Positions 756-19,900 of a DNA stretch of 21,974 bases are shown here, piece by piece. Every line of letters begins with the position of its first letter. Within the stretch, counting starts at the first letter, position 1. This stretch comes from Cochliopodium minus (taxonomy: Eukaryota > Discosea > Himatismenida > Cochliopodiidae). The stretch spans positions 1 through 21,974 of the forward strand of contig JAMYWO010000465.1 of assembly GCA_024220525.1 (NCBI GenBank). The letters run 5' to 3'. The notes under the pieces are model-generated. The model did no database searches. It was not told the DNA's origin and worked only from the letters and a program-made list of their open reading frames with translations. A program made the translations under genes and the position numbers.

Positions 756-3700
756 TTAATCAGATTGTTGGTAGAACAGAACTTTTGCAGTTTTTGAGTT
801 AAAACTTTCTTGAGAAGCAACCTTGATTGGTTTGTTATCTTTGGTAAGTAATTGCTCGTGGAATTCTTCCCAAATAGACTTATCTTTCCTCAAAGATTTT
901 GAGCAAGAAAACACACTTTTTTTTTCTTCGCAAATGAAAGAAAACAAATGGTATTTTTTGTTGTTGTTGGAAATTTCTAAGGGGATAGTCACTTTATCAT
1001 GTTGTGGGAAAAGAATGAGGAGAATTTTGGGAAATTCAATGATCTCTTTGGTTTTGGTGATGATGGTATCTCTTCCACATTGTTCGCAATAATCTTTGTT
1101 TTCAATTGGTTGCTGAAAATCTTCAAGATCAATTAAATCTGTATCCAAACAAAGCAAAGAGAAATCAGAGATTATTGGTTCTGGTGAATGTAGATTTGAA
1201 CATTTTGAGGAAACCTTTCAAAAAAGTAATAATTTTTTTTTTGTTTATTGAATTTGAAGGGTCTAGTTAGTTACCTTTAACTTTCCTTTCCAAGGGACGA
1301 TGTCAAGTTCATTCTCAAAGATTTTAAGAAGCCAACTTAAAAACTCTTCGGACCCATACTCTTTTCCCACTTCAAAGTTACTTCCAAGGTAAACACGTTT
1401 GGAGAATTGTAAGATTTGTGAGTTGAACTTTCTTATATTTTTAGTTGTGTAAGTTTTCTTTTGTTTTAGTTCCCTAAAAGATATTCCGTCAAATGCTTTC
1501 ATTACTTTGAGTTTTTCCAAGTCATTTTTGGTGTTATCTTTTTCACACTGCAAAAAAATTTCAAATCTTCTTTTTTCTATTGTACTCAATTCTTCAAAAG
1601 TGAACTTTGGAAATTTGCAATATTCCTTGTAACAACATAATTCTCCACTTCCTTTAAAGTGATGTTTGCAGATTGAGTTTTCGGCCAAATAATCATTAAT
1701 TTCATCGATTTTTTTCAGGCTAAATTTATGAGAGAAATGATGAAATTCAATCTTGTGATTGTTTTTGCAGAATTCATTTGAACATTTCAAGAAAAAGTGA
1801 CTCCAGCAAATCTCTTCTCCTATCATTTGAAACACCCTAAAGAAAATCATCTTGAGAACCTGATGTTTAACAACAAAGGGAATGGCCTTATATTTTACGT
1901 AAATTGAGCCAACAAATGCTTTAAAACAGTCAAGAGAAGAAGAGATTTTCTGCTTGGTAGAAATGGTTTTGTGTTTATTCCAAGATTCTTTAAATTTCTC
2001 ATCTTTTTCAAGAATGTTGATCATTTCAAAAGTAGAATTGAGAGATGCATTGATGAAAGAAGTGGATCCAAAATTCAAGACCCATTTATAATCAACAAAA
2101 TTATTGATCAAGTTGTTGTATTTTTTGTACCACCTTTCAATCAGATTGAAATCAACAATATGAGGTGCTAAGAGTTTGGTCAAGTTTTGAATGATTTCAT
2201 CAATATTAGGTCTTTTTGAAGCTTCTTCTGATAACATTTTTTCGATAAGAGCAAGCCACATATACTTGTTGTTTTCGGGCAAAATCTTTTTGGTGTCATA
2301 ATTCAATAATTTGGAAAAAATGGAGAAAGGCATCTGCATCGTGCAAACGATTTTCTTTGAAATGAGCTCTAGCAAAACAACACCAAGTGAAAAGATGTCT
2401 ATTTTTTCGGTTTTGGGTTTCCCGTTATGAAATTCAGGAGCCATGTACTTTTTAGTTCCTACATAAGTTTCCGTTGTCAAATCCATAGGTTTTGTGGTAC
2501 CAAAGTCTCCCAATTTGGCATGGATTGAGCTTTTATCGATAAACACCAAGATATTGTCCGGTTTGATGTCTCTGTGTAAAATGTTTCTGTCATGAAGATA
2601 TTTCAATCCACTGCAGATATCTGATCCAAGGCTGACTGATGTTTTATAAGTATAGTATTGATTATTGTTAATGTAATCAGTCAAATTGCAAGTTGCCCTT
2701 TCTAATTTTTTTTAAAAAAAAAAAGAATTTTTGAAATGGAAGGATAAATAAAAAATGAATATGAGATAGATACCCAAAATGATCAAAATATCAAAATCTT
2801 GAGATTGAGATTTTTGTACGTGAAAATCAAAATATTTTACGATAAAAGGAGAATCGCAATTTTTGAGATTTTCAATTTCCTTGTAAATCAAAGAATAGGT
2901 ATCTGATCTTTCCTTTGAAATCCCTTCGATTTTTGGGACTTTGGCAACTTTTTGACCCTTGTAGTCGATTTCATAAACATCGCCAAAAGATCCTGATTTA
3001 ATTATATTTTCTTTGGTGAGAGGAAAGCAGTGAGAAGATAGTTTGTATTCGAAAAACTTTTTTGTGAGCATTTCAAAGCACTTATTGTTATTTCTCAAAT
3101 GACCTTCTAAAGATTCGATTTGACTTCCTTTTAAAAGATCATTCTTAAAATTATCGATCGTTTTTCTGAGATTTTGAACTTGAATCTCAATTTGTTCAAG
3201 AAGATTCTTTTTGATTTTTTGGGAGACGGAATTGACATTGGAGAGTTGTTTTTCAAGACTTTTGATCAAGTTTTTTATTCTATCAGATGTGAACTCTTTT
3301 TGCAGATCTTCTCTTTTTTTGGAAGAAATGGCAGTTTTAAGAGGGTAATAAAATAAGTAGCCAAAGAAGGAAATAGGGATGATACCCAAAATCCAAATAG
3401 GTGACACAGCCACCTTTGCAAATCCATTCTCCATTTTGTTTGTGAACTTTACAAAGGTATTCTTGAATGCAGATTCCAAAATATCTCCTGTATTTATGAA
3501 AATGAGTTTTTCTCTGATTTCTTTCTTTATATCTGATTCATCATCCAAAATATCTTCAAATTTTAACGAATCCTTGAAATTTTTGGCCAAAAGATCCAGT
3601 GATCCATTTAGAGCAACCTTTTCTTTTGGGTTGAAGTTAATTTCCTGAAGGTATTCTTCGATTCTATTCTGCAGAAAGTTCTTCAGCTTTTTTTCTAATG

Positions 3701-5679
3701 TCGATTTCTTGTTTTCGTCAGTTTCCGTTTCTTTTTCAGCTTCAAAGATAAGTTCGATCGTAGCAACCATTGCCTTATGATGAAACTTGTTAATCATTTC
3801 TAGTTTCCTAAATTGAAAAATTTTTGAGTTTTGATTTAAATTTATTTTGATATAAAATTTTTTTTTTTTACAGATCATCTTTTTGTAATTTATATGTTCC
3901 GAGTTTTATTTCTAGATGTTTAGAAAACTTCTCTGTCTCCAAATATTCCCTGATTTTTTTGATCCTCTTTTGAAAATTTTTGTGAAGAATCTCATCAATC
4001 TTATCGTTGATCAAATCTTCCCTCAAAAATTTTTCGATCTTCTCCAACATATTTTTCTGTTTGTCAAAAAAATCCCTGTTAGAGTATTTCTTGGACTGTA
4101 CTAATTCTTTTTTTATTGATTGAGATAAATCAAGGAGAAGATCAACATTTCTTTGTAACTTGAAGTTGAATCCCTTTTCGAAGAAAGGAAGAAGCTTCTT
4201 GTTGAGCATCTCGTAATCACTGTTAACAATCCCTTGGAAGATTTTGGATGCAGAGCGAAGATTTGAAACACCAAAGTTTCTTTTGATATCAAAATCATCG
4301 AAAATACTTTTAATTTTGTCTTTGATGGTGGTAATGATGGATGCTCTGAACTCTTCTCCTCTTAAATCCCTTTAAAAAATTGATCAGTAAACTTTTTTTT
4401 TTTGATGAAAAATTAAACATTACAAATGTGTAACCAAAATGAAGATTTGAGAAGAGGATATAAAAAAATGTTCCATTTCTTTGAGAAAATTAACTCCGTT
4501 TATGTTGATCAAAGTGATCGCATTAACAGTAAAAAAACAGATCATTCCCTCTTTGAGATGTGAACAAAGTTTCTCATCTACTTTGAAAATGTCATTCATT
4601 CCAGGCGAGTCAATGAACATGATATTGTGTTCTAGAATATTAATAGGAATAGAGATTTCGACTTTACCCTGAATTTTTTTTTTTTCGTTATCCGTGTGAT
4701 CTTTAATTGAGATTGCTTCTTCTAGAAACTTGCCCAAATTTTTTATGTCATCGGTGCTCATCTTCCCAATGTCCCCATTTAATTGTATTGGACCAAACAT
4801 CTTTGGTTCTTTATCTATCAATGAAGAGACAACTTTTAGTTGCTTGTCATAGTAAACGTGAGTCAAAGTGTTTGTGCAAGGAATATCACTTGATGGAAGG
4901 AGGTTGTGGTTCATGATAACATTAAGAAGTAAAGATTTCCCTTCAAACAAAACAAATAAAGCTTTGCAAATTAACAAAGAAGAAATTATTAAATTACCAC
5001 TGTTTGTGTCCCCAGCTACCATGATTCGAAAATAATCATTTAAATATTCTTTAATATATTCAAATTTTTTTTTTATGTTGGGTGTATCTAGCTTTGGAAT
5101 CTCTTTGAATACATTAAGAAGTGAATCATGCAATATCTTCTCGAGGATATTCTTTTCTTGGCTATACTTCTCTAATGCTATTTTGATTGTCTTCACAGAA
5201 TCCCTATTTATCTTCAATGATTTTAAATGAGGGAGAATTATCAAGATTTTTCCTATGGATAGTTCCATTTCAATCAATTCTTCTTCTTCTAAAATCAATA
5301 TTTGTTCCTCTGTATACTTTCCATATTCTATCATTTGGCTATAAATTTTTTCCTTTTGTTTCTTGCATTTATATGTGAAGGACAATTTATTCACCCAATT
5401 GCATACTTCTTTATATTTTACTTTCTTTATCTCTTGATTATTATTTGTATTATTTTCTATCAAGCTCTCAATTTTTTTTATTTTATCCATAATTAGGATT
5501 ATATACTCGTTTTTGATTCCCATTCTTTCCAGATGATCCCTTCTCAGCGAATAGAATTGCTTGGCTTCAAAAATTTCATTATCGATCAATTTTTCATATA
5601 TTAATTTCTTCTCCATCTCTCCAATATCTAACGTTTCCAACAAATCATAAATATTTGGGAACTTTAATTTTGAGTTCAT
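756..5679 (-). CDS. SAM-SAM-dynamin-like GTPase-membrane hairpin-protein kinase-pseudo-USP fusion protein, 1538 aa
   Basis: Exons in transcription order: 5679-4998, 4940-4424, 4369-3872, 3807-2774, 2701-1275, 1214-756; the five introns are 54-72 nt. Two SAM domains lie at about residues 8-72 and 93-155. The GTPase follows: P-loop GDTNSGKS 223-230, switch I Thr250, DSPG 338-341, G4-like THLD 398-401. Long helices (401-690), a hydrophobic hairpin (698-725) and a coiled coil (727-800) recall mitofusin/BDLP-type dynamin-like proteins. The protein kinase has GSFGDVY 838-844, Lys855, HRD 953-955, DFG 976-978 and APE 998-1000, so it looks active. A USP fold follows: Cys-box GSTSF 1122-1126 with Ser1125 where the catalytic Cys belongs, EEFL 1362-1365 for the QQDAHEFL region, CEQC 1429-1432, and an ending VLFYQQ. 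Introns interrupt the P-loop, the G4 motif, the kinase and the USP, and one exon each spans hairpin-to-kinase and kinase-to-USP, so it is one gene. The start is the first ATG after an A-rich leader. Known of the families: SAM oligomerises and dynamin-like GTPases remodel membranes. Inferred: a membrane-bound signalling scaffold. Confidence 0.85.
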
Positions 5680-6006
5680 TTTTATTTATTTTAATTTAAT
5701 CAACAATTTTATAATTTTTCAATTTTAATTATTCTCAACATTAATTTAAAAAATCAAAAAGAAAATGAAAAATTAAATCGATGTCCAAATGGAAGGGATG
5801 AAGTTTTAAATATTTCTTTTTCATTTTTTCTTAATTCTTTCTTATTTTAACCTTCAATTTATAACAATAGACCTTTATAGTATTTAATTATTGAAGGTAT
5901 TGTAATTGAAATAAGAAACAATTAATCATTGATTTTTAAGATTTCATTTCTGAAACTGATCTGAAAAAGCTTAAAAATTTTAAAAAAAAAAAAAAATTGA
6001 AAAAAA
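5680..6006. promoter_or_regulatory. Divergent promoter gap between the GTPase-kinase fusion and the Sel1-MYND gene
   Basis: This 327-bp gap separates two outward-facing starts and must carry both promoters. It is almost wholly A/T, with homopolymer runs; a run of more than ten A's sits just before the + strand ATG and an A/T-only leader precedes the - strand ATG. No discrete motif could be assigned. Confidence 0.5.
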
Positions 6007-7263
6007 ATGCATTCAAACGATAATAATAAAGTGGATTCAACAAATAATGATAAAGAAGAATCTATTGAATTATTAAAACAGGGAAGACTATTCCTCTCGG
6101 AGAAGAATTCAGAGAAAGGCTTGGAATATTTGTTGAAAGCAGGTGAGAAGGGTAACATGGAAGCATATACCACCTTGGGATGCATCTATCTGTTAGGACA
6201 AGATCAGATCAAGAAAGATGAGAAGAAGAGCATCGAATATTTCGAATTGGCAGTGAAGGGAGGTGATAATGAAGCGGCATATAATTTGGGATGTTTACAT
6301 ATGGAATCTAATAATATCACAAAGGTATAAAATTCAGATTTAATATCAATATCAACAATTGATTTAATATCAATATCCAATTATATATAAATATAAAAGT
6401 TGTTTATTATATATAACATTAATTCAAAGAATATGATTACAATTATCAGCATCAAAATTTATCTAAATATATCAAATCAATATGTTTCATTGGAATACAG
6501 CATTATTGAAATTGCTTTGAATATGATATTTCTCGAATTAAATTTATTTGGTTTGAAACAAAATGGAATAATGCTAAAACTGGATTATAAGATTAGCCTT
6601 CACTAAAATTAATTTTTAATTTGCTGTATAATAATAATAATATTAACTGAATCGAATCACAAACAAAAAATTATTTAATTTATTTAATTTATTAAAACTT
6701 TCATTTATTGAATATTTTTTCAATTAATTGTAAATGTTTATTGAACTTTTACAATATTTTTAGGGATTGGAATACCTTCATAAAGCTTCTGAAGGGGGTT
6801 TGGATCATGCCAACTTTAAACTTGGAAGATATTACTACTTTGAAAAGGGAGTAGAAAACATCAAAAAAGGTTTAAAAATATTTAATATTTTAAATTTTTT
6901 TTTGATTTGAAATTTTTTTGATTTGAAATTTTTTTAATTTGAAATTTTTTTAATTTGAAATTTTTTTAATTTGAAATTTTTAATTTTTTATTTTTTTTAT
7001 TTTATTTTTTTATTTTTTTCAATTTTTTATTTTTTTTATTTTATTTTTTATATTTTAGCAATACACCACTTGGAAATCGTTGCCAAGAAGGAATGCAAGG
7101 AAGACCACCAAAAAAAATTTCCTCTCAGAGCCAACATCGTGTTGGGAATCATCTACGGTACCGAAAAGGAATACAAAGACTTTAAAAAGGCTGCTCATCA
7201 CCTCGAAATCGCAACTTTGGGTAAAAATTTAATTTACTTATTTTTATTTTATTTTTATTTTTA

Positions 7264-7294
<31 letters not shown>

Positions 7295-8221
7295 TTTTGA
7301 TTTTTGTTTTTGATTTTTTTTGATTTTTTTTTATTTTTTTTGTTTTTTTTTTTGACCTTTTTTTTTCAATTATTTTATTTTGTTACATTCTTTTTTTTTT
7401 TCTTTTTAGATAATGAAAAGAAACTCGAAAAATCTGAAGCTTTGATGGGTCTGGGGATGATTTACTACAAAGGAGGACATGGTACAAAAATAAAAAAGTC
7501 AAGAACTTTACATTTCTTTCAAATAATTTCTTTTTTTATTTTTTATTTTTTGAATTTTTTTTCATTTTTATTTTTTTGTTTATTTTTTTTCATTTTTTGA
7601 TTTTTTAGGAATTGAAAAAGACACCCAAAAAGCGAAATCTTTTTTCCAACAGTCCGTCAATCTTGGCTGCGAGGACGCCAAACATTTGTACGAGTATCTC
7701 TTGAGAAACCCTAACGACGATGAGTTCCTCGAGCAGTATCTTCACCAAAAAATTTTGAATCAAAGTGACGAAGATAAAAGTAAAGACAATTTTTTAACAT
7801 TTTTATTTTTTATTTTTTTATTTTTAATTTTTTTCTTTTTTTTTTCATTTTTTATCTTTAATTTTTTATTTTGAATTTTTAATTTATTTTTTATTTTCTT
7901 ATTTTTAATTTTTATTTTTTTTTTTTTTCATTTTTAATTTCTAATTTTTAAGTGTTCATTTTTTAATTGATTTTATTTTTTATTTTCTTATTTACTTTAT
8001 TTTTTTTTTTAAAAAAAAGTTTTGAATTCTTGTTCTAATTGTAAGTCTAAAGAAAACCTTAAAGTCTGTTCCAGATGCAAAATAGTAAAATATTGTTCAA
8101 GGTGAACCACATTCTTTTTATTTAATTCTTTTTAATTCATTTTAATGTTTTTTTTTTTTGGTGTCTTAGGGAGTGTCAAGTATCTCATTGGAAAATACAC
8201 AAGACCAATTGCAAGAATTGA
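6007..8221 (+). CDS. Sel1-repeat protein with C-terminal MYND zinc finger, 320 aa
   Basis: Exons: 6007-6324, 6764-6869, 7059-7220, 7410-7481, 7609-7779, 8020-8101, 8170-8221 (TGA 8219-8221). About six Sel1-like TPR repeats fill residues 15-250, shown by recurrent A..LG.IY and KKA..(H/F)(L/F) patterns. The MYND finger is at 281-318: CSNC, CSRC, YCSREC, HW...H and a final C. Sel1 arrays are protein-binding solenoids and MYND fingers bind proline-rich peptides, so an adaptor role, perhaps in protein quality control or chromatin, is likely but not shown. The start follows a long A-run. Introns 2 to 5 are all phase 1, so the three exons between them are symmetric. Introns are T-rich and of 68-439 nt, longer than in the neighbours, and two carry simple or tandem repeats. 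The gene is divergent from the GTPase-kinase gene. Confidence 0.88.
6325..6763 (+). other. Long first intron of the Sel1-MYND gene (439 nt)
   Basis: Donor AAG|GTATAA and acceptor TTTTTAG|GGA join ITK to GLEYL in phase 0 and restore a Sel1 repeat across the junction. A chance 207-nt frame (6400-6606) lies inside, low in complexity and without homology that I recognise. Two near-copies of a GATTTAATATCAATATC-like word occur at about 6338-6377. Nothing else stands out. Confidence 0.7.
6904..6980 (+). repeat. 16-bp tandem repeat in intron 2 of the Sel1-MYND gene
   Basis: The unit (G/A)ATTTGAAATTTTTTT occurs four times exactly in register (6904, 6920, 6936, 6952) and partly a fifth time from 6968. 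The first two copies begin with G and the later ones with A, which fits stepwise expansion with one early substitution. It lies wholly within the intron. Confidence 0.85.
7226..7300 (+). repeat. TTTTTA-type microsatellite in intron 3 of the Sel1-MYND gene
   Basis: About ten copies of a 5-6 nt TTTTA/TTTTTA unit run through the intron just after the donor at 7221. This is simple-sequence expansion in a non-coding position. Confidence 0.8.
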
Positions 8222-8865
8222 ATATAATTAAATAACGATAAAAATAAATAAAAAAAATTTTCATCAAATACCATCAGTGAATTTCACAAATTCGATTTTA
8301 ATCCTTTTGAGGAATAATGGTATAATTTTGTTTTATTCCATATGCAAACTTAATTTTTTAATTCACATATACTGTTAAATTTATTATTAATCACGATCAC
8401 ATTCCACGTTGACACATCTTATAACATGGATTGGTTGACATCTTGTGGATCATCAATATAAATTTATTATTTAATAAAAGAATCAAAATTTTTACAAGGG
8501 ATTGATGATAATGAAATAGAGTGAGTAATCTCGATTTTCATGATATCTCTTGGTTATTCTTCAAAAATTTTCTTTTTTTATTCCCTTGTGATCTTTTCTT
8601 TATTTTTTCCTCAATTTTATAATAGGAATTTCTTCTAAAATAATTCTTTTACCAACGATAAAAAACAACACAGCTCGTTAACACTCTCTTATACTGTTAC
8701 CGCGTTCCGTTGTTAACATTTAAAGACTTCGGTTGTCTTCGGTTGTAAATGTCCACTAGATCCATTCTAATGTACGTAACGAATCGAAAAATATTCTTTT
8801 TTTTCTATTATTATCAAATTTTTACATAAAACAAAAATGTTTTTATTTGTTAAAAGTGAATTTTT
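8222..8865. other. Convergent 3' gap with a GC-richer patch and small hairpin/tandem repeat
   Basis: This 644-bp gap lies between the 3' ends of the Sel1-MYND and ankyrin genes. AATAAA-like signals occur just after 8221. Bases 8690-8790 are noticeably less AT-rich than the surroundings. A 10-bp word CTTCGGTTGT is repeated back to back (8727-8736, 8737-8746), and ACATTTA/TAAATGT arms (8716-8722, 8746-8752) flank it, so the patch could fold. No tRNA-like or protein-coding signature was found. Confidence 0.5.
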
Positions 8866-11023
8866 TTAATTCAAAAGCAATTTTTGGTAAGCAGTGTTGA
8901 CGTCGATGTGGCAGCCTTTCTTAGGAAGCAAAACGAATCTATTCAAGCTGTTTTGATGCCAGCTCTTGATCCTCTTGATGATGTTGACATTTTCAGGCAA
9001 GGCAATGACTGTGAAAGAAAAAAATTTTAGTAAAAAAATTTTTTGAAAAATACTTTTAAGAAATTAAAAAAAATATTTTTTTATTCTTTTTTTACATTTT
9101 TGTTGATCCACTTGTTCAATGATCATCATAGATTCAGCATATTGACCCAAATTCATGGCAGTACAAGCGAGATAAGTCAATTCAGGGACGGTAGTGGTAT
9201 TATCTACCTCGACTACAGTACGGGAACCGTTCTTGAGGTAAATGGTAGATTTCTTTTTGATGTGGTACTTGACGGTTGTGCCCAGATCGTTTAAGTACTC
9301 TTCCAAAGTGTCGTTTTCCTTGTGGTACTCTGAAATATAGTTCAAATATCCGTTGGCTACATTGTCGTCCTCGATATAATCGAATGGATGAAAACCTATG
9401 AGTGGTAAAATTAATATGAAATTAAATAAAATAAATTAAACAAAGTAATGAGAACATTTTTATTGAAAAAAAAATTAAATTAAAATTTTTTCATTAAAAA
9501 AAAATACCTAGATTGTCGGAAATTTGATGGTTAGCACCACAACGTATCATGTGCTCGAGAATTTCTTTGGACAAAGAATACTCACAACCGACATGAAAAG
9601 AAGTCTTTCCCTTACGATCAGGGATATTAGCCTGAAAAAAAAAATTAATTTTTAAAATATAAAAATTATTTCAAAATTAAATTCGTAAATAAAAAAATTT
9701 TTTTCAAAAAAAAAACCAACCTTCGCGCCATTCTGTAGGAGAACCCTCACAACATTCTCATTTTTATTTCTACAGGCCATATGAAGAACAGTCTCGCAAA
9801 GATTCTTTTCGAGGACGTTGGCGTTGATCTTGTGTTCAACGAGGAGCTTTCTCACGATCTCCTCATCTCCTTTTAGGACCGCTGCGATGAGGGTTTTGTT
9901 TCCCTTGGCGTAGTACCTTTGCGCGGAGTCTGTTTTTTTCGATGCTTCTTCCGATTGAGCCAAATCCTCTGTTTTTCAAAATAAAATTTAAAAAAAAATA
10001 TAAATAAAAATGAAAATAAAAAAAAGTTTAAAAAATTTGAAATTTGAAACAAAAAATTTGAAATAAAAAATAAAAAATAAAGAAAATAAAAAATAAAGAA
10101 AGAAAACATTGGAAAATTTTTTTTTATTTTTTTACCAAGCAAAGTAATCAACTCTATTTTTTTCTTTTCTTCCTTTCTTTTTACTTCCAACTCGATATCT
10201 AACTCATCCGTCAAGTTTCCCATTATCCTATCGAATTCGTCTGAACTATCGTCTCCAGGGATGTACACATCGTCCTCATAATGGAGTCCCTTCCCCTTCT
10301 CTTCGCCCACTTCATCAAATTCTTCAAGCTGTCCATTTATTGAAAAATAAAAATTAATTGATAATAAATGATAATGGATGCATGGAAAATTAAAGGAGTA
10401 TTAAAGGATTGATGTTGAACAAAAATTCTTGATCAAGAATTACTTTAGATTTATATATATAATTAATCTTTCATTGAAAAATATGATAGAAGCTTTTAAT
10501 CAACATACAATGATAAATTAATCAATGTCATCTTGATTCAAATTATTTGGCCTTTCTGAAATTGAATTTATAACATGATATTAAATTATTGATCAACGGT
10601 ACCCAAATTATCATATTCTCAATTTGTATATGTACCTTTTGTTGATTTAAATTGATCCTATTATCGATCATTCAAGAATAAAAATTTTGATTGTAAATTA
10701 TTCTCAAGATGTAACTTATTGAATCAAATTAATATATAATCTGAGAAATTTAGTCTGTTTGAAATATTATTTATATTCTTTTATATAGATAAAGGAGTAA
10801 GTACTTGTACTTTACATATTGAATTTAAACTTACATAAACAAAATTCTTCTCATATGTCCCTGTATGTCTGTCTATCACCCTTTGTTTCTTTTGGATATA
10901 TTCTTCAGGATTCATTATCCTTTTATCCAATTTAGATTTGATCTCAAAGATTTCCTCCAACATTTCTCTATCCCCTATCCTACTTTTATCCTCCATTTCT
11001 ATTGTATCTTTAGCATTATACAT
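8866..11023 (-). CDS. Ankyrin-repeat protein with SHOCT-like N-terminus and C-terminal ubiquitin-like/RA-like domain, 398 aa
   Basis: Exons in transcription order: 11023-10835, 10328-10136, 9968-9721, 9631-9508, 9395-9096, 9008-8866 (TAA). Residues 21-52 form a short helical hairpin (EIFEIKSKLD...NPEEYIQKKQ) resembling a SHOCT motif. An acidic, probably disordered stretch follows (about 64-125). Ankyrin repeats span about 146-260, with clear signs: TLIAAVLKGDEEIV, TVLHMACRNKN, VVRVLLQNGA, KTSFHVG, CGANHQI. Residues 300-382 read as a ubiquitin-fold domain of RA or FERM-N type (TIYLKNGSRTVVEVD, VPELTYLAC, FVLLPK), a fold that often binds Ras-family GTPases. The first intron is unusually long (506 nt) and joins NFVY to LEEFDE in phase 0; the others are 87-167 nt. 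Likely a cytosolic adaptor. The ankyrin call is strong, the C-terminal domain moderate and the SHOCT likeness weak. Confidence 0.82.
10329..10834 (-). other. Long 506-nt first intron of the ankyrin gene
   Basis: The donor TAT|GTAAGT is close to the metazoan consensus and the acceptor is GGACAG|CTT. The interior has no open frame but contains an 18-bp perfect palindrome (10424-10441) and a GATCAACGGTACCC patch near 10590. It is more than three times longer than most introns in the window and could hold a regulatory element. Confidence 0.6.
10424..10441. repeat. 18-bp perfect palindrome
   Basis: AATTCTTGATCAAGAATT equals its own reverse complement over its full length. It sits within the long first intron of the ankyrin gene. 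Such a site could bind a dimeric protein, or it could be chance in AT-rich sequence. Confidence 0.9.
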
Positions 11024-11245
11024 TTTAATTTTTTTTGATTAAAGAAGAAAGTTAAATTATCGATGTAAATTATATAGTCTTCATATTCACCATTAGAAGT
11101 TTCTTATACAACTTCAACAGGAAAATAATTATCTTTTAAAGTGGAAAAAAAAGGTTACAATTTCATCAAGTCCCTATTTGTATGATCGATAAATCAATAA
11201 ATTTTTGGCGCTTTTATTTTAAATAAAAAAAAATAAATAAAAAAA
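11024..11245. promoter_or_regulatory. Divergent promoter gap between the ankyrin and VID27-like genes
   Basis: The 222-bp gap lies between two outward-facing ATGs, both preceded by A/T-only leaders (AATAAAAAAA before the + start). A short TTTTTGGCGCTTT patch at about 11204-11216 contains a GGCGC core, unusual in this AT-rich DNA and similar in form to an E2F-type site, but one copy proves little. Confidence 0.5.
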
Positions 11246-12594
11246 ATGGATTTACCAAAACCAAACTTTTATGCATCAATTGATTTGACTGGAGATAATA
11301 TAGCAGCAGTATCCAAAGATGATACTGTAAACTTCTACAAGCCAGAGGGGATAGTGAAAGGATATCAAACAAAATTCAATGATGGGAAGTCATTCACACC
11401 AAACAAGGTAAAAATGGATTCGATTATTTAAATTAAAATCAAAGAATAAGGCGTATATGAACCGAATAATTTATAAATTTAAAAATGTGGGAAAAATAAC
11501 GATTTTCTTTAATTTTTTTTATTCACAACTAATTCGATAGCTCCTGTTCCAAGATAATTCATCCAAGATGTTATTCCTTACACCAAACAAAAGAAACATG
11601 ATGGTGGACTACGATGTGGAGACAGGGACGAACATAGGAGAATTGCAGCTGAAATTCGATTCGACCTCAGATAGCATCAACATAGATGACGTGACACCAG
11701 TCAAATTGTACGATCAAATCAAGTCAAACTCTGTGCATAAGTTGGTTGGAGTATCTAAGAGATCATTAATGAATATCAATTGGGATACAAGAGAAAAACA
11801 AAAGAATGGAGAGATGCTCATCACCCCTGAAGAAAGAAAATCAATCACAAAGAGAAATCATCAATATACCAAGATAGTCACCACCAAGGAAGGACATGTG
11901 GCAGTGGGTGATATGGATGGAAGCGTATCGCTGTTCACCAATCCCAGCGAGGGCAACTGGAAGATAGCCAAGACCAAATTCACTCAGCTGAGTGATCCTG
12001 TGTTGGCAATTGATGTCAGTGGAAATGGAGAATGGGTCATCTGGACCACTAAAGGTAAAATTACTTAACGAAATAAAGAATTATAAAGATAAAATATTAA
12101 AAAAAATTTGAAATTTCAATTTATTCAAATGTATTTTAAATTTCAAAGAATATATTGCTTTGGTTCAAACTGAATGGAAAGACGAAGAAGGTATTCCTTA
12201 TTCCGGCTTTGAGAAGTCCATGCAAACCAAGTACAGAAACCCTGCATTGATCTTGCAGCTCTCAGAAGAGGAGAGAAAAAGGTACGACATCAAAGAGATT
12301 AACTTTACACCTGCATGTTTCGACAACGGTACCATCATAGACAACAATCTCATCACAGAAGAATTGATCGCTACTTCCACTGGAAAATACACAATTTATT
12401 GGAAAATGAGACACGTAACTTTGGATTACAAGAAGGGCAGATATTCTATGGATGAGAGTTGTGCCAGAAAGGCTTTTATTAGGGAGCACAAGAAGGAAGT
12501 TTTGGTGCAGAAATTTGAGTACAAAACTAACAAAGGTGGAGACAACTTAGTGTCTGCTTTGAGCGATGATTTGGAGAGATTCAATATCAATTAA
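11246..12594 (+). CDS. VID27-family protein (C-terminal propeller domain only), 373 aa
   Basis: Exons: 11246-11407, 11541-12054, 12149-12594 (TAA), with introns of 133 and 94 nt. The product matches the conserved VID27 C-terminal domain along its length. Signs include MLFLTPNKRNMMVDYDVETG (a structural strand and MD/ETG turn), VGVSKRSLMNIN, FTQLSDPVLAIDVSGNGEWV followed by TTKEYIALVQT, and a basic C-terminal segment IFW-like (TIYWKMRHV). The family is named for yeast Vid27, linked to vacuolar import and degradation, and its plant relatives are CYPRO4-like; the biochemical role is unclear. Full-length members are usually longer, with an N-terminal PH-like region that is absent here. The ATG follows an A-rich leader, so the short form looks genuine and not truncated. 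It is divergent from the ankyrin gene and convergent with the cathepsin gene. Confidence 0.85.
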
Positions 12595-12762
12595 CACCAC
12601 AAAATTTTTTCAAACAAATTAAATTTTTTTGAAAAAATAAAAAAGATTATTCAATATGTTGCTCACATAAGTAATTCTAAAAGTTTATGTCATTGTAAAA
12701 ATGGTAAAAGAAAAAAAATGGATTGAAAATCTTTTATTAAAGAAAATTGAGAACAAATTTCC

Positions 12763-14207
12763 TTAAACCTTTGCAATGGTGACTTCATCAGCAACACCAC
12801 AGAGATTTTTGTTTCTTTCAACTTGTAAGTATCCACCTTGACCCCAAGATGCACCCCAAGAGTTTCTGATCCACCAAAAGTTAGTTCCATCAGAAGCAGT
12901 ACCATAACCAGTGATTTGGACGCAGTGATCGAGGTTTTGACCACAGTTGCTCTTGATGATACCTCCGGTGTAGTATTGCCAGCTGGATGCATCAACACAG
13001 ATGGAAAGAGGAGCAGTGGAGTAACTAAAAAAGAAAAATAAGATTGAATTCGTGAATGTTTTTGTTTAGATGGAAATTTCAAAAGAATTTTTTTTTCAGA
13101 TTTTTTTTTTTACAGAACATTTTGCATTTGGGTTTCGTTCTTGGTGGTAGTTGCATAGGACCATGAGGAGATAGATGCAGCAATCAAGCTAGATTTGAAT
13201 TGGCAAGTTTGATCAACAGCTTCATAAGGATCTTGATAGAAAAAGAAATAATATTAATAATAGAAAGGTATAAGGTTAAAATATCAAATGAGTGAGTATA
13301 AATTAAATGTTTGCTTATGATTTATAATTTAAAATATTTTTACAGTTTGCTTCAGTTTCCAATCCTCCTGCAGAGATGACATATTCATAAGCAGTAACGC
13401 TATAAAAAAAGGTTATAATTAAAAATTGAAAATTCAAAAAAGAAAATGAGATTTACGTATCTCCACCATCACATCCATCATCAGTGGTATCACAATCGAC
13501 GATTTGTTGTTCAGACAAGATTTGTTTGGTCTTTCCAGCCAAGATCCATACAGATTCGACTTCTTGGGTAGTGGAAAATGCCCAACTATAATTTGAAAGA
13601 AAAGAATTAGGTATTCAAATTTCTTTTTTTCGAAAATTCTTTGGAATTTTTTTTTTGAACATTAAAGATTCTGAAGAAAATTTTTTACCAAGATCCACAT
13701 TGTCCTTGATTTTTAACTGGAGTAACTGGGTTAGGGGATTGATTTCTCCAATCATAGTTTGCAGGGATATCCTTTACTTTTTCAGGATCAACTTGGAATA
13801 CTGTTCCTTGGGATTTATCAGATTGTTGGAATTTCTTCATCAAAAACATATGTTTGAATCTTTTGATTGCATTACAATATAAATATTATAAAAATAATAA
13901 CAAATTCGTATTTTATTACTCAGATGGGGAAAGATCAGTGAATTGATTTGCTCCATAAGATGCTCCATTGAAACTGTTGAGCTTTCTAATGGTCTTCATG
14001 TTGTTAAGAAAGATTCCGAATCTTTTGTTTTGTTCTTCTTTGGATTTATAATTTCTATTGAAATCTTTCTATAGAATTAGATTCTATTAGTTAGTTACAA
14101 ATAATTGATTTAGAAGAATATACCATATATTTGAAGAATAAATCTTTATCGGTTGCTGCAGAGCATACAAATACAAGGCAAAATACAAGTAAAATTGTCT
14201 TCATCAT
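12763..14207 (-). CDS. Secreted cathepsin L-like papain-family cysteine protease (C1A), 322 aa
   Basis: Exons in transcription order: 14207-14124, 14068-13920, 13859-13689, 13585-13457, 13399-13344, 13231-13114, 13024-12763 (TAA). A signal peptide covers residues 1-18 (hydrophobic, ending CSAA). The I29 inhibitor propeptide spans about 22-80 (KRFGIFLNNM, NQFTDLSPSEF). The mature enzyme starts near residue 110 (IPANYDWR). The oxyanion Gln129 lies in QGQCGSCW, the catalytic Cys is 135, the His is 269 (LDHCVQITGYG) and the Asn is 290 (WWIRNSWG), so it should be active as a lysosomal or secreted endopeptidase. The zymogen length is typical. The catalytic Cys codon is split by an intron (TG|T). 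Two in-frame ATGs open the gene (14207 and 14204); either works as the start. Clustered introns are 55-112 nt. Confidence 0.95.
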
Positions 14208-14601
14208 TTGAAATGAGTTTTTTTTTTATTTTTATATATTTATATATTTTAAAATGAAAATTCTTTAGAGAATTGAGTCAAAAATAATGTTATTGATTGA
14301 TCCAAGATATTCTCTCTTTTATCTATTATATTCATTTAATCAAATTATTCATATAATCTGGACCTAATATTTTTAACACTATAAAAAAGTCATTCATCTC
14401 TATATATATATCTTCAAATTATTTTTCCTTACGGTATTGGTTTTTGTTTAAATGATAAATAATTTAAACTTGATTATAATGAAAGGAAATGAATGAAATC
14501 AAAGAAAAATATGTCAAATAATTCAATTGATAAATCAACAAGTTTCAATTTTTTTTTTTAATTTGTGTCAATTATTTTTGACAATTAAAAAAATAAAAAA
14601 A
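14208..14601. promoter_or_regulatory. Divergent promoter gap between the cathepsin and PSI-domain genes
   Basis: This 394-bp AT-rich gap separates two outward-facing signal-peptide genes, so co-regulation is possible. It includes T-rich and TATATA-rich tracts (about 14231-14249 and 14401-14412) that could serve as core promoters. No other discrete motif is recognised. Confidence 0.45.
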
Positions 14602-15272
14602 ATGGCTATGAAATACTTTCTTTTGATAGTCGTTATAATGATAGGACAAAGTCTATCAATCGACCCAGGTAAATATATACATCACTTATTTGTAAAATTT
14701 GATATATTATGATCATACTTTCTAGAAAATGATCCTTGCAATAAATACAGTCAAGGATGTGATATTTGTGCAGATTATATTGGATGTAATTGGTGTGTAA
14801 ATGTCACCACAAATGGAACAGTAGGAATATGCGTTCAAAATTATAATGGAATAAGCAATGATTGTCAATATGTAGTAAATGCGAGAAATTACTGTCCATT
14901 ATGTAACTCTAAAAACAATTTAAAATTCTAACTGCTCAAATTTTTATTTATTCAAAAGTGAACAATTTGACACCAGTAAAAGATAAGTTTGGACAAAAAT
15001 CAATCACAACCTTTAGTAGACAAGTGGGAGCATTGATCACTTTAGTATTTTTGTTTTTTATACTCGTATGCTTCACCTTCCTCTTCTGTCCTGCAAATTG
15101 CGGATCCTATCCAGTGTGGTGCTTCGCATGTATATTCGGGAAACTTAATGATAAGATCTGGGGTGTCACAGAAGAGCATTTTGATGACGATTTTGACTCC
15201 TTAAGAATCACAAATAACATTGGAGTTGATCCTAAAAAATTTAAACAAGATCAAAAAATTAATATAAATTAA
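14602..15272 (+). CDS. Small type I membrane protein with a PSI-like cysteine-rich ectodomain, 185 aa
   Basis: Exons: 14602-14668, 14726-14902, 14959-15272 (TAA), with introns of 57 and 56 nt. A signal peptide (MKYFLLIVVIMIGQSLS) covers about residues 1-19. A PSI-type (plexin-semaphorin-integrin) cysteine cluster follows (CNKYSQGCDICADYIGCNWC, then GICVQ, DCQ and YCP). NVT and NGT are potential N-glycosylation sites. A transmembrane helix lies near residues 105-125. It is followed by a short Cys-rich juxtamembrane stretch (NCGSYPVWCFACIFG) and an acidic cytoplasmic tail (EEHFDDDFDS). The start is the ATG after an A-run, not the upstream in-frame ATG at 14527, because only the former places the signal peptide at the N-terminus. 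The function is unknown; a cell-surface or endosomal receptor-like protein is an inference. Confidence 0.8.
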
Positions 15273-15408
15273 ATATTATTTCAATTAAAAGAATATTATT
15301 GTATCAATTGATTGATAATTTCCAAATTATTTAAGAAGCCTATCATAGAAATGACAATCCCAAAAAAAAACATTAAAAACATTAAATTTGTTTGTATAAA
15401 TAATTTAA

Positions 15409-16784
15409 TCAAAAATAAGTCAACATAAATTCGTAAATGAGCAAAGCAGAGGAGTGCTTGATGAATGCCCTTAACTAAAAATACAAAAAACAATTAAAAA
15501 GCAATTAAATTAAAAAGATGGAACATGTTAAATGAATTCTTACAACACAAGCCCGGTAACCCTTGACGAACACTAACATACCACCATCCTTTGCAAGCAG
15601 AGAAGATGTCTCAAAAATTTTATTGTACTCTCCATTAGGGCCTCCTTGCTGAATCCTTGTCTTGACAACATCAAGAGGATAAATGGCAGTCCAAGAAACA
15701 ATTCCAGCAATTCCTTGGAAAAAATAAGGTTTTTTACATCTTAAAAAATTATTATTTAAATAATTTTTTTTTTACCTCCACTCAAAAATATTGGAAATAT
15801 TTTGTCTCTGAATCTGGATTTATCAATATTGTAAAAGGGGTGTTTGTGAATGAGTAAATGTTTTAAATATTCGTAAGTAGTAAAATAAACACAAGTCCCT
15901 GTAAAATTTAAAATAAAAATAAAAAAAATTAATTAATAATAATAAAAAAAAAAAAAATAAAAAAAATATATTTATTATGTTTGTGACCTATTGTGTCTCT
16001 GTATAGTGAAGGAACAATCCCCTTGTAAAGTTTTGTAAAGCCATTATTATACATTTTTTTCAAACAGTCATAAGTGTTTGAATACCTCTCACTGTTAACT
16101 TGAAGTCTAAAATTTTTTTTACATTTTTTATTAAAGTTAATGATTTTTTTTTTCATAAATTTTTACTGTATTTTTGTATTTTCTAATGGGAGAAATGATA
16201 TGGTTGGTAAGATGGTTGATGTAGCTCCTGATACAGCCACATAGTAATAGTTAATGATTTTTCCATGGTTCTCTCCATCTAAATATCTCAACATTGAACC
16301 GTATGACTATGATAAAAAAAATTTTAAGAGGAGATAAAAATTTTTTATGAGAGGAGATTAATTTTTTTGATATATTTATTACTCCAAACATTAATGCCCC
16401 AAATATTGTTGATGTCAACATTGGTGGGATGATCCCATAGAATAATGATTTTGTTCCTTTTTCAATGATTGATTTTGATTCATTTAAAAAATCACAAAAA
16501 AAAATAAAAAATTTATTTGAAGCATTATCTTGTTTATTTTGTCAATCAAAACTATTCTGATTCATTTTTTATTATGAATCTTTTTTTTTACCTTCTTGTA
16601 TCACCATCTTGTTTGCACAATCGAACATATTTTTGTACAGATAGGGATTTATCTGCATTCTCGCCTTGATTGTATCGAATGGATGTGATAATAATGTAGA
16701 GGAGATGCTAGAGAAGATTCCAGAGAAAAAATTGGAAAAGAAATTCTTTTGATCTTTTGGCTTGTGGATCTTATTTTCCAACAT
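15409..16784 (-). CDS. Mitochondrial carrier family (SLC25) transporter, 294 aa
   Basis: Exons in transcription order: 16784-16592, 16456-16383, 16306-16167, 16106-15988, 15898-15776, 15713-15544, 15474-15409 (TGA). The three carrier repeats each keep their P-x-[DE]-x-x-[KR] signature: PFDTIKAR from residue 35, PLENTKIQ from 129, PLDVVKTR from 229. Glycine-rich matrix-loop motifs follow (LYKGIVPSLYRD, FVKGYRACVLRAF), and the protein ends YEFMLTYF as is usual. Carriers exchange metabolites across the inner mitochondrial membrane by alternating access. The length is typical. The substrate cannot be read from the sequence; an amino-acid or carnitine-type carrier is possible. The intact carrier implies a mitochondrion or a related organelle. 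The first helix starts about 14 residues in, with no long targeting presequence, which is normal for carriers. Confidence 0.92.
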
Positions 16785-16932
16785 TTTTTTTTATTTTTAT
16801 AAAATCAAAATTTTTCGAAAAATTATGATTTACAGATGGTATTCATGATACAATGTTTTTCAAAATTTACTTTAATTCACCAAATCCTTTTCTTGTGGTA
16901 AATTTTGGATTTACAAAAATTAATAAAATAAA
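16785..16932. promoter_or_regulatory. Short divergent promoter gap between the carrier and Arp-SH3 genes
   Basis: Only 148 bp separate the two start codons, so both promoters must be compressed here or overlap 5' ends. The gap is A/T-rich, with CAATG-like and TTTACAGATGG words near 16840-16860 and no clear TATA box. Confidence 0.5.
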
Positions 16933-19900
16933 ATGAATGATAATAGCACATTTATTTTCGATATAGGATCAGATTCAATCAAATTTGGGTATGCCAACTC
17001 AATTCCCTCGATGGAGAAAAATATCCTAGGAAAGATGGATTCGTAAAAAAAATATAAAAAGTTTTTTCCAGTAATTTTAAAGAACAATGCCAATAAATTG
17101 ATAGGAATAACATATCAGTAGGGATGGATAAAGAATATAGTATAAAATTTTATATCATGTTATTTTTGGATTAAATTTTATTATTTTCCTTCAATTTAAA
17201 TGAACTGAAAAGTATATTATGGGAATGAAGCATGGAAGAGATATTCGATGTTATCAATCAAATATCTGATGGATAAGAACAAAATTATCGATTTTAACAA
17301 TTTAGAGAAGGTGAATTATTATGAATAGAAATCAAATAAGATATTTATTCAATTTGTCTGTGAAATTTTATTTTTTTATTTTCATATGTTTTTAATAGTC
17401 CATCGAAAACATTCTCAACACAAAATACGGATCAAACATCATCGAAGATAACAAGATCATATTGACGGACAATCTCTACAACGAATGGAAACAAAAGGAG
17501 AAGATGGCGAACATCTTTTTCGAAACTTTCGACGTGAAAGAAATGATCATAGCGCCTTCACCACTGTTGTCATTATATTCCACATCACTAAAATCTGGAA
17601 TAGTTATAGACAGTGGTAAATAAAACAATTTTTTTTTTTTTGAATTCAATTGTTATTTTTTTTCATTTCTACAAAGGTCATGGCTCAACCCACGTATTTC
17701 CGGTGGTTGATGGTGACTTTTTTGTTCTATGTGATTTAAAGAACTTTAATCATTATTTTACAAAGGAAAAAAGACAAAACTAGAAAGGTGAACTTAATAA
17801 TCATTTTTTTTTAAAAAAACACAAGAATTTTTTATCTTTAAAATTTATGAGGAAGAATTAAATAATAGCTCCAACAATTTTTTTAAAATATTATTTTAAA
17901 TCAAAATTCATTAAAAATAGCATAAAAACATTGAGTTTGGGAGGAAGTGAGATAATGGAGCAAATGAAACTTTTGTTATCTCTTCCTAATAACAAACTGG
18001 CTTGTGAAGCAAAAGAAAAACTTTGCGAGTTCTCGTTAAATGGATCCTTTGGAGATTCTAACATAGATACATTCGTTCTTCCTGATCAGTAAGAAATTAT
18101 TTTATAAGAAATTTAAATTTATTTTATTTCTGCAATAATGAATGAAATTTTTACTTTTATTTAGTTCTACTATATCGGTCAAGGAAGAAAGGTATAGAGC
18201 TACTGAGGTTCTTTTCGAGCCCATTACCACAGGATCCAGCGAGAAAGGCTTGCACACCTTTTTCTTTGACTGTTTGGGAGGCTACGAAAAAACTGACTTC
18301 CACAAAATCCTCTCCAAAAACGTTGTTTTGACAGGTGGTTCTTCTCTTATTCCCAAATTCAAAGAAAGACTCTTATATGAATTTTCAAAGAAGAAATTTA
18401 CACCCACCATAACTACCACCAATGTAAAAAAAAATTTTCAATACTTGTTATTTTTATGAAATTTTTTGTTATTTTTATTTTTATTTTTATTTGTAAATAA
18501 TTATAAATAATTTTAGGATGGAAGATATTCTAGTTTCAAAGGCGCCAGTGTGATATCCAGTGTTTGGGGAGATGAGTTTTGGATCAAAAAGTACGACTAT
18601 GAGGAAGAGGGAGAACAGTCTATCTTCAAAAAATCTCCGCTAGACGACTCTTCTCTCAAAACTAACTCTTCTTTCTGTGAGTCTTCTGGTGAAGTTAGAT
18701 TTGACCAAATAGAAAGAGTTGTTGGGTTGCATGGTAAATAATTATAGAATAAAAACATTCTAATTAGTATTTTATTTTATTTTTAATAATTAAAGATTAC
18801 AACACCCAAGAACCCACCAAAATCTCTTTTAAAAAAGTAAACCTTTTAAAATATTTTTTTTCCCATTCATCTGATTAATTAACAAAAAATAATTAGGGGG
18901 AAGTTTTGTTTGTCATAGACAAATGTTTCAAAGGTAGATTTTTATTTATATTTTTTTTATTTAAATTTAATTAATTAAATATCTTAGAATGGTGGAAAGC
19001 TTGTGACGAAAAAAAGACTCGTGTTGGATTGGTCCCTTCCACATTTGTTAAATCGATCACCCCACTCAAACTCCAGATAGAAGCGAATAGCGACTTGGAA
19101 ATCTCGAAGAAAGAAATTTCCCGCCTCACAAAAAAGATAGAGCAGTCCCAAAAGAAACTGACAGAAGCTTTGCAGAAGGAAAAGAAACACGAAAACGAGG
19201 TCAAAAATTTGGAAAAGGTGATCAAGGAGAAAAACAACCATCTCAAGCTTTTGGATCAACAAATCAAAGAAAAGACGAAGAAACTCGAAAAAAAACTGAA
19301 AAAAGAAAAGGAATTACTCGAAAAGAAGGAGAAAGAGAAAAGTAGTAAAGAAAGCCCCAAGGAAGTCACAAAAGAAAGTCCTGTAGAGTCGAAGGGAGAA
19401 AAGGTTGTTGAAAACAAACCGGTTGATTCTGATAACACCCAAATTGATAATAACACCAACACTACCAAGCATGTTTCTTTTAAGGAGAATAAAGGAGAGA
19501 ATGAACTTTTGGCGAGTACTAAAAATCAGTTGCAACTTGAAATTGATGAAAAAAACAATTCCATCTCTAATTTAAATCTGTCAATTTTTTTTTAATTTTT
19601 GTTTTTTTCAAATTTTTATTTTTATTTTTTTTAAATTTTTTTATTTTAATAATTTTTATTTTTTCACTTTTAAAGGGAGGCCAAAAAACTGCAAAAAGAA
19701 ATCGAAAATTATAAAAAAATTCTTGAAAGAAAGGAGAAAAGAGCCTCCATTTTGCCCAAGAGGGAGGAGATCGAAAAAGAGCTCGAGATCGGACTTCCTA
19801 ACAGCGAAACTGTCTATGTCGTCAAAGAAATATCCGACGTGGAGAAGGTCAAGCGTGAGTTTTTCTTTTCCATCGGTTTGGAGCTTAAAATGGATCTGAT

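Follow-up and report, generated by a model that had tools for sequence, protein, structure and literature searches.

The window, meaning the whole 21,974-nucleotide stretch analysed here (contig JAMYWO010000465.1 of Cochliopodium minus, assembly GCA_024220525.1; 72% A+T), carries on its minus strand a predicted gene of six exons (5679-756) and five GT-AG introns, which join into one frame of 4,617 nucleotides encoding 1,538 residues. The predicted chain combines a dynamin/mitofusin-type GTPase, a helical stalk with a hydrophobic segment and a protein kinase; a SAM-like domain, perhaps two, likely precedes the GTPase, and a USP-like tail that has lost its catalytic residues plausibly follows the kinase. 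The exons and introns lie where the original prediction, made from the letters of the sequence, had placed them, and are listed here together with the hydrophobic segment:

4998..5679, minus strand: exon 1, with SAM-like domain 1 (likely; about residues 8-78), a weaker SAM-like domain 2 (plausible; about residues 88-152), a linker and the GTPase start through GDTNSG
4941..4997, minus strand: intron 1, 57 nucleotides, GT-AG, within the P-loop; spliced product GDTNSGKS
4424..4940, minus strand: exon 2, GTPase body with the remaining G1, G3 DSPG (residues 338-341) and the G4 start
4370..4423, minus strand: intron 2, 54 nucleotides, GT-AG, within the G4 motif; spliced product THLD
3872..4369, minus strand: exon 3, GTPase end and helical stalk
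3808..3871, minus strand: intron 3, 64 nucleotides, GT-AG, in the stalk; contig C278 has the same order
2774..3807, minus strand: exon 4, with stalk, hydrophobic segment, second helical segment and kinase N-lobe (from residue 831, position 3014)
3425-3339, minus strand: hydrophobic segment, residues 694-722 (Kyte-Doolittle above 1.6 in 19-residue windows starting at residues 694-700)
2702..2773, minus strand: intron 4, 72 nucleotides, GT-AG, between the kinase lobes
1275..2701, minus strand: exon 5, with kinase C-lobe (to residue 1082, position 2187) and the possible N-terminal half of a USP-like domain
1215..1274, minus strand: intron 5, 60 nucleotides, GT-AG; read-through meets a stop
756..1214, minus strand: exon 6, the likely C-terminal half of a USP-like domain (CEQC, residues 1429-1432), and the stop codon

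As spliced from the sequence, the frame meets its sole stop at its end, and the reading frame holding the ATG at 5679 opens no earlier than 5685. Exons contain 28-33% GC and introns 11-22%. Read-through meets a stop in four of the five introns; intron 1 is stop-free, yet leaves the P-loop broken if unspliced. Splicing at junctions 1, 2 and 4 rebuilds GDTNSG/KS, THL/D (slash at the junction) and the kinase domain, respectively, the last recovered as one Pfam Pkinase match spanning the junction, whilst junctions 3 and 5 fall in the stalk and the tail, respectively. Of the four introns earlier said to interrupt motifs or domains, three do so (P-loop, G4 and kinase), and the fourth, at junction 5, falls in a tail whose USP label is plausible.

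Because exons 1, 4 and 5 each bridge domains (SAM-like parts to G1, hydrophobic segment to kinase and kinase to tail, the last two continuities as originally described) and junctions 1, 2 and 4 are intradomain, the placing of GTPase, hydrophobic segment and kinase in a single predicted gene is supported. An artefact of the gene model or assembly, whereby a contig misjoin or a run of two or three neighbouring genes was read as one gene, would find its opening at junction 3, where the sole backing is comparison, namely the collinear order in C278. The bridging exons, the three intradomain junctions and the repetition of the same order on C278 all argue against this explanation, which we consider very improbable. 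Overall, the single spliced frame, the GTPase and the kinase of the original prediction held, whilst its SAM and USP labels and its membrane hairpin proved less secure.

The GTPase-kinase core and its relatives in the genome

Pfam analysis of the spliced protein returned Dynamin_N (residues 219-383, E 2.3e-15, 57.5 bits against a cut-off of 27; 2.1e-12 for exon 2 alone), with MMR_HSR1 above cut-off over the P-loop and AAA_lid_1 below cut-off. A PDB sequence search with the N-terminal 838 residues found as best matches BDLP (2j68, 5.3e-8) and Fzo1 (9kff, 3.5e-6), the latter presumably the yeast protein. Together with the motifs G1 (GDTNSGKS), G3 (DSPG) and a G4-like THLD, these matches identify the predicted GTPase as a member of the dynamin superfamily of mitofusin/BDLP type. 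The window protein shares with mitofusin/Fzo1 and BDLP, its closest PDB sequence matches, the order of dynamin-family GTPase, helical region and hydrophobic segment, and differs from them in carrying SAM-like domain(s) ahead of the GTPase, THLD as its G4, and a kinase and tail after a second helical region.

The kinase was matched by Pkinase (residues 831-1082, E 1.3e-42, 146 bits against a cut-off of 31.7) and, above cut-off over the same stretch, by PK_Tyr_Ser-Thr; by single exon, Pkinase gave 0.00095 for the N-lobe in exon 4 and 1.6e-33 for exon 5. All of the expected motifs were found (G-loop GSFGDVY, the lysine in KVAKVPK, HRDIKPDN, DFG and MAPE), placing this predicted domain, with its catalytic residues, in the protein kinase superfamily. 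Both the Dynamin_N and the Pkinase matches are far above chance level.

Chains that combine a GTPase with a kinase are known, LRRK2 being an example, and in LRRK2 and other ROCO proteins self-association is thought to control the kinase. The window protein resembles these in holding a GTPase and a protein kinase within one chain, but its GTPase is dynamin-type instead of a Ras-like Roc, it has a hydrophobic segment, and it lacks a Roc-COR tandem ahead of the kinase, with neither Roc nor COR reported by Pfam up to E 1 in the spliced protein. The nearest working analogy would be the LRRK2 plan built on a mitofusin/BDLP-type membrane GTPase.

Dynamin_N gave 13 matches at 12 places in the genome, and around the 11 that lie beyond the window, kinase pieces following the GTPase on the same strand were sought. 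Such pieces were found at three of the 12 places (the window, C278 and C174), whilst no same-strand kinase was detected within the inspected surroundings on C128, C2, C86, C16, C152, C20 and C48. On C193 the GTPase is followed by a kinase match of E 0.019, which we do not claim as a kinase; C299 offers two N-terminal segments and a GTPase before the contig ends; and at locus L053 the kinase matches and the GTPase occupy opposite strands.

Contig C278 carries two tandem genes (L008, C278:5500-12861). In C278B, open frames for GTPase and stalk come first, then the aligned segment with the [SA]P[IV]W[IV] motif, then the kinase, with one frame spanning from past that segment into the N-lobe of the kinase; C278A, cut by the contig end, extends from stalk to kinase and has the hydrophobic segment, at which the [SA]P[IV]W[IV] motif is common to the window and C278. 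The window kinase aligned to the two C278 kinases with scores of 284 (shuffles at most 74) and 153 (shuffles at most 63), reached by 0/200 shuffles each, whilst alignment of the stalks was marginal, the C278A score being reached by 1/200 shuffles and the C278B score by 16/200. On C174, a GTPase and then kinase pieces lie on one strand within ~2.4 kb; that they form one gene is probable only, since no single open frame links them. With the collinear genes on C278 and the probable gene on C174, the GTPase-kinase core constitutes a small family, and the original prediction's view of the combination as standing alone must be given up, as the core recurs in the same genome. A search of the genome with the tail matched the window gene only, with none at C278 or C174. 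Inspection by eye showed DLG in place of DFG in both C278 kinases, and C278B, which has no recognisable glycine loop, may be a pseudokinase; in the C174 kinase (L051:4063-4762), HND replaces HRD. A scan of viral contigs gave two 59-residue GTPase matches at 27% identity (L058, L059).

The size and divergence of this family bear on a possible role as a cell-autonomous defence receptor, in which a GBP/IRG-like GTPase from a small, fast-diverging family would coat microbe-holding vacuoles and signal via its own kinase. Copies are indeed few and divergent (the window GTPase shares 22-26% identity with four relatives), those on C278 stand in tandem, and the end domains vary. However, the divergence may also reflect old age, and a family scan of eight neighbouring open frames (window 6004-19592) assigned five of them to families, none of defence:

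6004-6327, plus strand: Sel1 repeats
9655-9975, minus strand: ankyrin repeats
11541-12065, plus strand: VID27-like
12766-13065, minus strand: papain-like protease piece
18142-18456, plus strand: actin-like piece

We accordingly rate a defence function as improbable.

The SAM-like and USP-like ends

The N-terminal region was compared with a genome-specific SAM profile built from 38 sequences in 20 genome regions (L029-L048), which contain part of the 79 SAM matches in the genome. Shuffle controls were made like for like, with the same piece shuffled and both the whole score and the best single stretch compared. SAM-like domain 1 scored 13.4 bits (best of 500 own shuffles, 8.5), a value reached by 0/500 shuffles by either measure, and SAM-like domain 2 scored 11.3 bits (best shuffle 9.7), reached by 0/500 in whole score and 1/500 in best stretch; the first 210 residues taken together gave the same counts as domain 2 (0/500 and 1/500). 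The two pieces also resemble one another, with a pairwise score of 52 that 1/300 shuffles reached.

A single-sequence AlphaFold2 (AF2) model of the SAM-like part had a mean predicted local distance difference test score (pLDDT) of 46, with 50-72 across residues 11-70 and values below 50 for the SAM-like 2 region, which was left out of structural realignment. Foldseek returned nothing for this model at E <= 0.001, its top row being Sla1 SHD2 at E 3.9. When 27 chains were realigned to residues 4-79 with VIA-align, the top four were Sla1 SHD2 (Z 7.8), an Eph receptor SAM domain (1b0x, 7.7), ASK3 SAM (6.7) and PHC3 SAM (5.6), with the rest at 4.2 or lower, where Z values below 8 may reflect merely a common arrangement. 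Three of these are SAM domains by title, and Sla1 SHD2 we take to have a SAM fold. A first SAM-like domain is therefore likely and a second plausible.

Among the relatives, the second N-terminal segment of C299 matched SAM-like domain 1 (score 62, best shuffle 55, 0/300), whilst under the same shuffle control its first segment did not, and neither segment matched the SAM profile (3.5 and 1.3 bits). Neither SAM-like domain was matched beyond shuffles by the N-terminus of C174 or of C278B, the best case being reached by 12/300. In C193, the strand complementary to that of the GTPase has a SAM-like open frame (L007:1699-1977; SAM_2 7.6e-5), which adjoins frames that by eye resemble NTPases.

For the tail, two USP profiles were built from open frames at 17 loci (L012-L028, of which L012 and L017 overlap), a narrow one of 26 pieces without L021, L024 and L025, and a wider one of 29 pieces with them. 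Exon 6 scored 10.2 bits with the narrow and 15.8 with the wider profile, above the best of 500 own shuffles in each case (7.0 and 10.7; 0/500 reaching either score), its match to the wider profile covering positions 147-304 of 305. In best-stretch terms, the exon-5 part of the tail was reached by 5/500 (narrow) and 1/500 (wider) shuffles. The whole tail was reached by 15/100 shuffles with the narrow profile and 0/100 with the wider. In pairwise scoring against eight chosen USP frames of the genome, with 200 shuffles, the whole tail was matched by shuffles for seven (C49: 4/200), and passed for C20 alone (score 85, 0/200), in an alignment that is sensible near CEQC. Taken separately against the C49 USP, exon 6 scored 67 (reached by 1/500 shuffles) and exon 5 scored 61 (12/500), the latter pairing VLNFGSTSFINA with VLNFGASSFLSS. 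In this weak exon-5 alignment, NFGSTSFIN sets a Ser at the presumed place of the catalytic Cys, against a C49 box that itself has Ser (NFGASSF).

The best USP matches to the tail come from two loci, on C20 (L055:2069-5115) and, on the minus strand, C49 (L056:381-2963), that differ from the window gene in pairing a USP frame (UCH 1.4e-21 and 5.1e-12, respectively) with a following Ulp1-type frame (Peptidase_C48 2.3e-29 and 9.2e-33) on the same strand, with no kinase or GTPase seen. Given that shared strand, each locus may be a single gene whose product handles ubiquitin as well as SUMO. On C232 (L057, C232:54500-62500), one strand carries matches to a protein kinase and to a USP, ~4 kb apart.

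The USP label draws mainly on exon 6, likely the C-terminal half of a USP-like domain; the N-terminal half, and hence the Cys-to-Ser change, is no more than plausible. The predicted tail showed no recognisable Cys box and, by eye, no GHY-like His region, and its protease activity appears unlikely. If the alignment is right, the tail resembles pseudo-USPs such as USP39, in which, in the extract seen of a review (PMC10919355), catalytic Cys and His are replaced, and differs from them in being joined to a GTPase-kinase and in being too divergent for Pfam UCH. According to the same extract, pseudo-deubiquitinases work as scaffolds or allosteric activators, and the usual triad is not needed for activity in USP52 and perhaps in USP39, whilst an extract of PMC12037411 reports USP53 and USP54 to be active. 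Because some USPs deemed dead have thus proved or may be active, a dead tail is a prediction only. The original proposal that the tail guides the kinase through ubiquitin is not sustained, the USP label coming mainly from exon 6 and the Cys-to-Ser change from a weak alignment.

Several results weigh against both end labels, and with them against the fuller reading of the chain. Pfam gave SAM_2 at E 8.9 at best by exon and no SAM match on the spliced protein, UCH was reported for neither the spliced protein nor the tail, and the genome's list of 83 UCH matches has none in the window. PDB searches with phmmer found no relative of either part up to E 10. On the full-length protein, the whole score of the SAM profile was at shuffle level, and the USP profiles likewise did not stand out. 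The whole score of the exon-5 tail part was reached by 338/500 (narrow) and 68/500 (wider) shuffles, its AF2 model (pLDDT 40) was too poor for structure search, and the alignment to the C20 USP did not place the window GSTSF on the Cys box. These observations would suit a chain for which both labels are wrong, leaving a dynamin-like GTPase-kinase between a helical N-terminus of undefined kind and a Cys-containing tail. Since the SAM-like 1 piece and exon 6 each beat 500/500 of their own shuffles, three of the four top structural rows for SAM-like 1 are SAM domains by title and the fourth, Sla1 SHD2, is taken to be one, and the two SAM-like pieces are alike, we judge this unlikely, whilst giving it more weight than any other alternative considered here.

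The occurrence of kinase and USP-like parts within one predicted chain also invites comparison with organelle quality control, in which the protein would be a one-chain counterpart of mitofusin, PINK1 and USP30 on the same organelle membrane. USP30 reportedly opposes Parkin mitophagy. That the GTPase found its best PDB matches in BDLP and Fzo1 is in keeping with such a module, as is the phosphorylation of MFN2 by PINK1 stated in an extract of PMC6533591. Against it, the window kinase was compared within the genome, where its matches include the C278, C145 and C155 kinases; the USP label is no more than plausible and its site looks dead; and the genome search with the tail found no USP-like tail at C278 or C174. 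This role, too, seems improbable.

A proposed self-assembling membrane kinase

We tentatively read the gene product as a membrane-attached, self-assembling, receptor-like kinase, a possibility that we place somewhat short of an even chance. GTP-driven dimerisation of the GTPase heads, together with SAM contacts, would gather chains on a membrane, where the clustered kinases would phosphorylate one another in trans and nearby substrates. By binding ubiquitin, a ubiquitin-like protein or a partner, the tail may set the place or target, and GTP hydrolysis would reset the assembly. This logic of clustering builds on what is generally known of dynamin-family GTPases, SAM domains and LRRK2.

Within the core, some features sit poorly with this proposal. 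In the G4-like THLD, His replaces the usual Lys. The original prediction had called for a membrane hairpin, of which one hydrophobic stretch was recovered (residues 694-718, ~25 residues with Pro at its centre, between stalk and kinase), but not two clear membrane passes by Kyte-Doolittle analysis; further windows above 1.6 fall within the kinase (residues 1011-1031). In the joined sequence of C278B, the corresponding segment aligns but contains no window above 1.6. The architecture of GTPase, hydrophobic segment and kinase in a single predicted gene nevertheless makes a self-assembling membrane platform with a kinase, as originally interpreted, a fair reading, whilst the uniqueness and the ubiquitin guidance attached to that interpretation were not supported.

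Dynamin-like tethers and pseudo-USPs are each already known. A literature search (dynamin-kinase, SAM-dynamin and kinome-dynamin) found no such fusion described among the titles and abstract starts listed, a scope that left domain-architecture databases and most subscription papers outside. In the extract seen of a Dictyostelium dynamin review (PMC8565484), a mitofusin-like protein of unknown function is listed and no kinase fusion appears. Within the literature searched, a small gene family that unites a dynamin-family GTPase with a kinase, and whose window member has SAM-like and USP-like ends as well, is apparently undescribed. A bolder proposal, doubtful as it stands, is that one chain would serve as a GTP-switched, ubiquitin-reading membrane kinase, doing work elsewhere split among a mitofusin-like tether, a membrane kinase and a ubiquitin-handling partner, and would be the most elaborate member seen of this apparently undescribed dynamin-kinase fusion family.

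The presence of a dynamin-type GTPase and a kinase in one chain would make it possible to ask directly whether phosphorylation reports on the assembly or membrane remodelling that a dynamin-family protein performs, with the C278 and C174 relatives providing simpler versions for comparison. Ultimately, this natural fusion hints that a GTPase, a kinase and perhaps ubiquitin-binding may cooperate at one membrane, as has been proposed for mitofusin, PINK1 and USP30.

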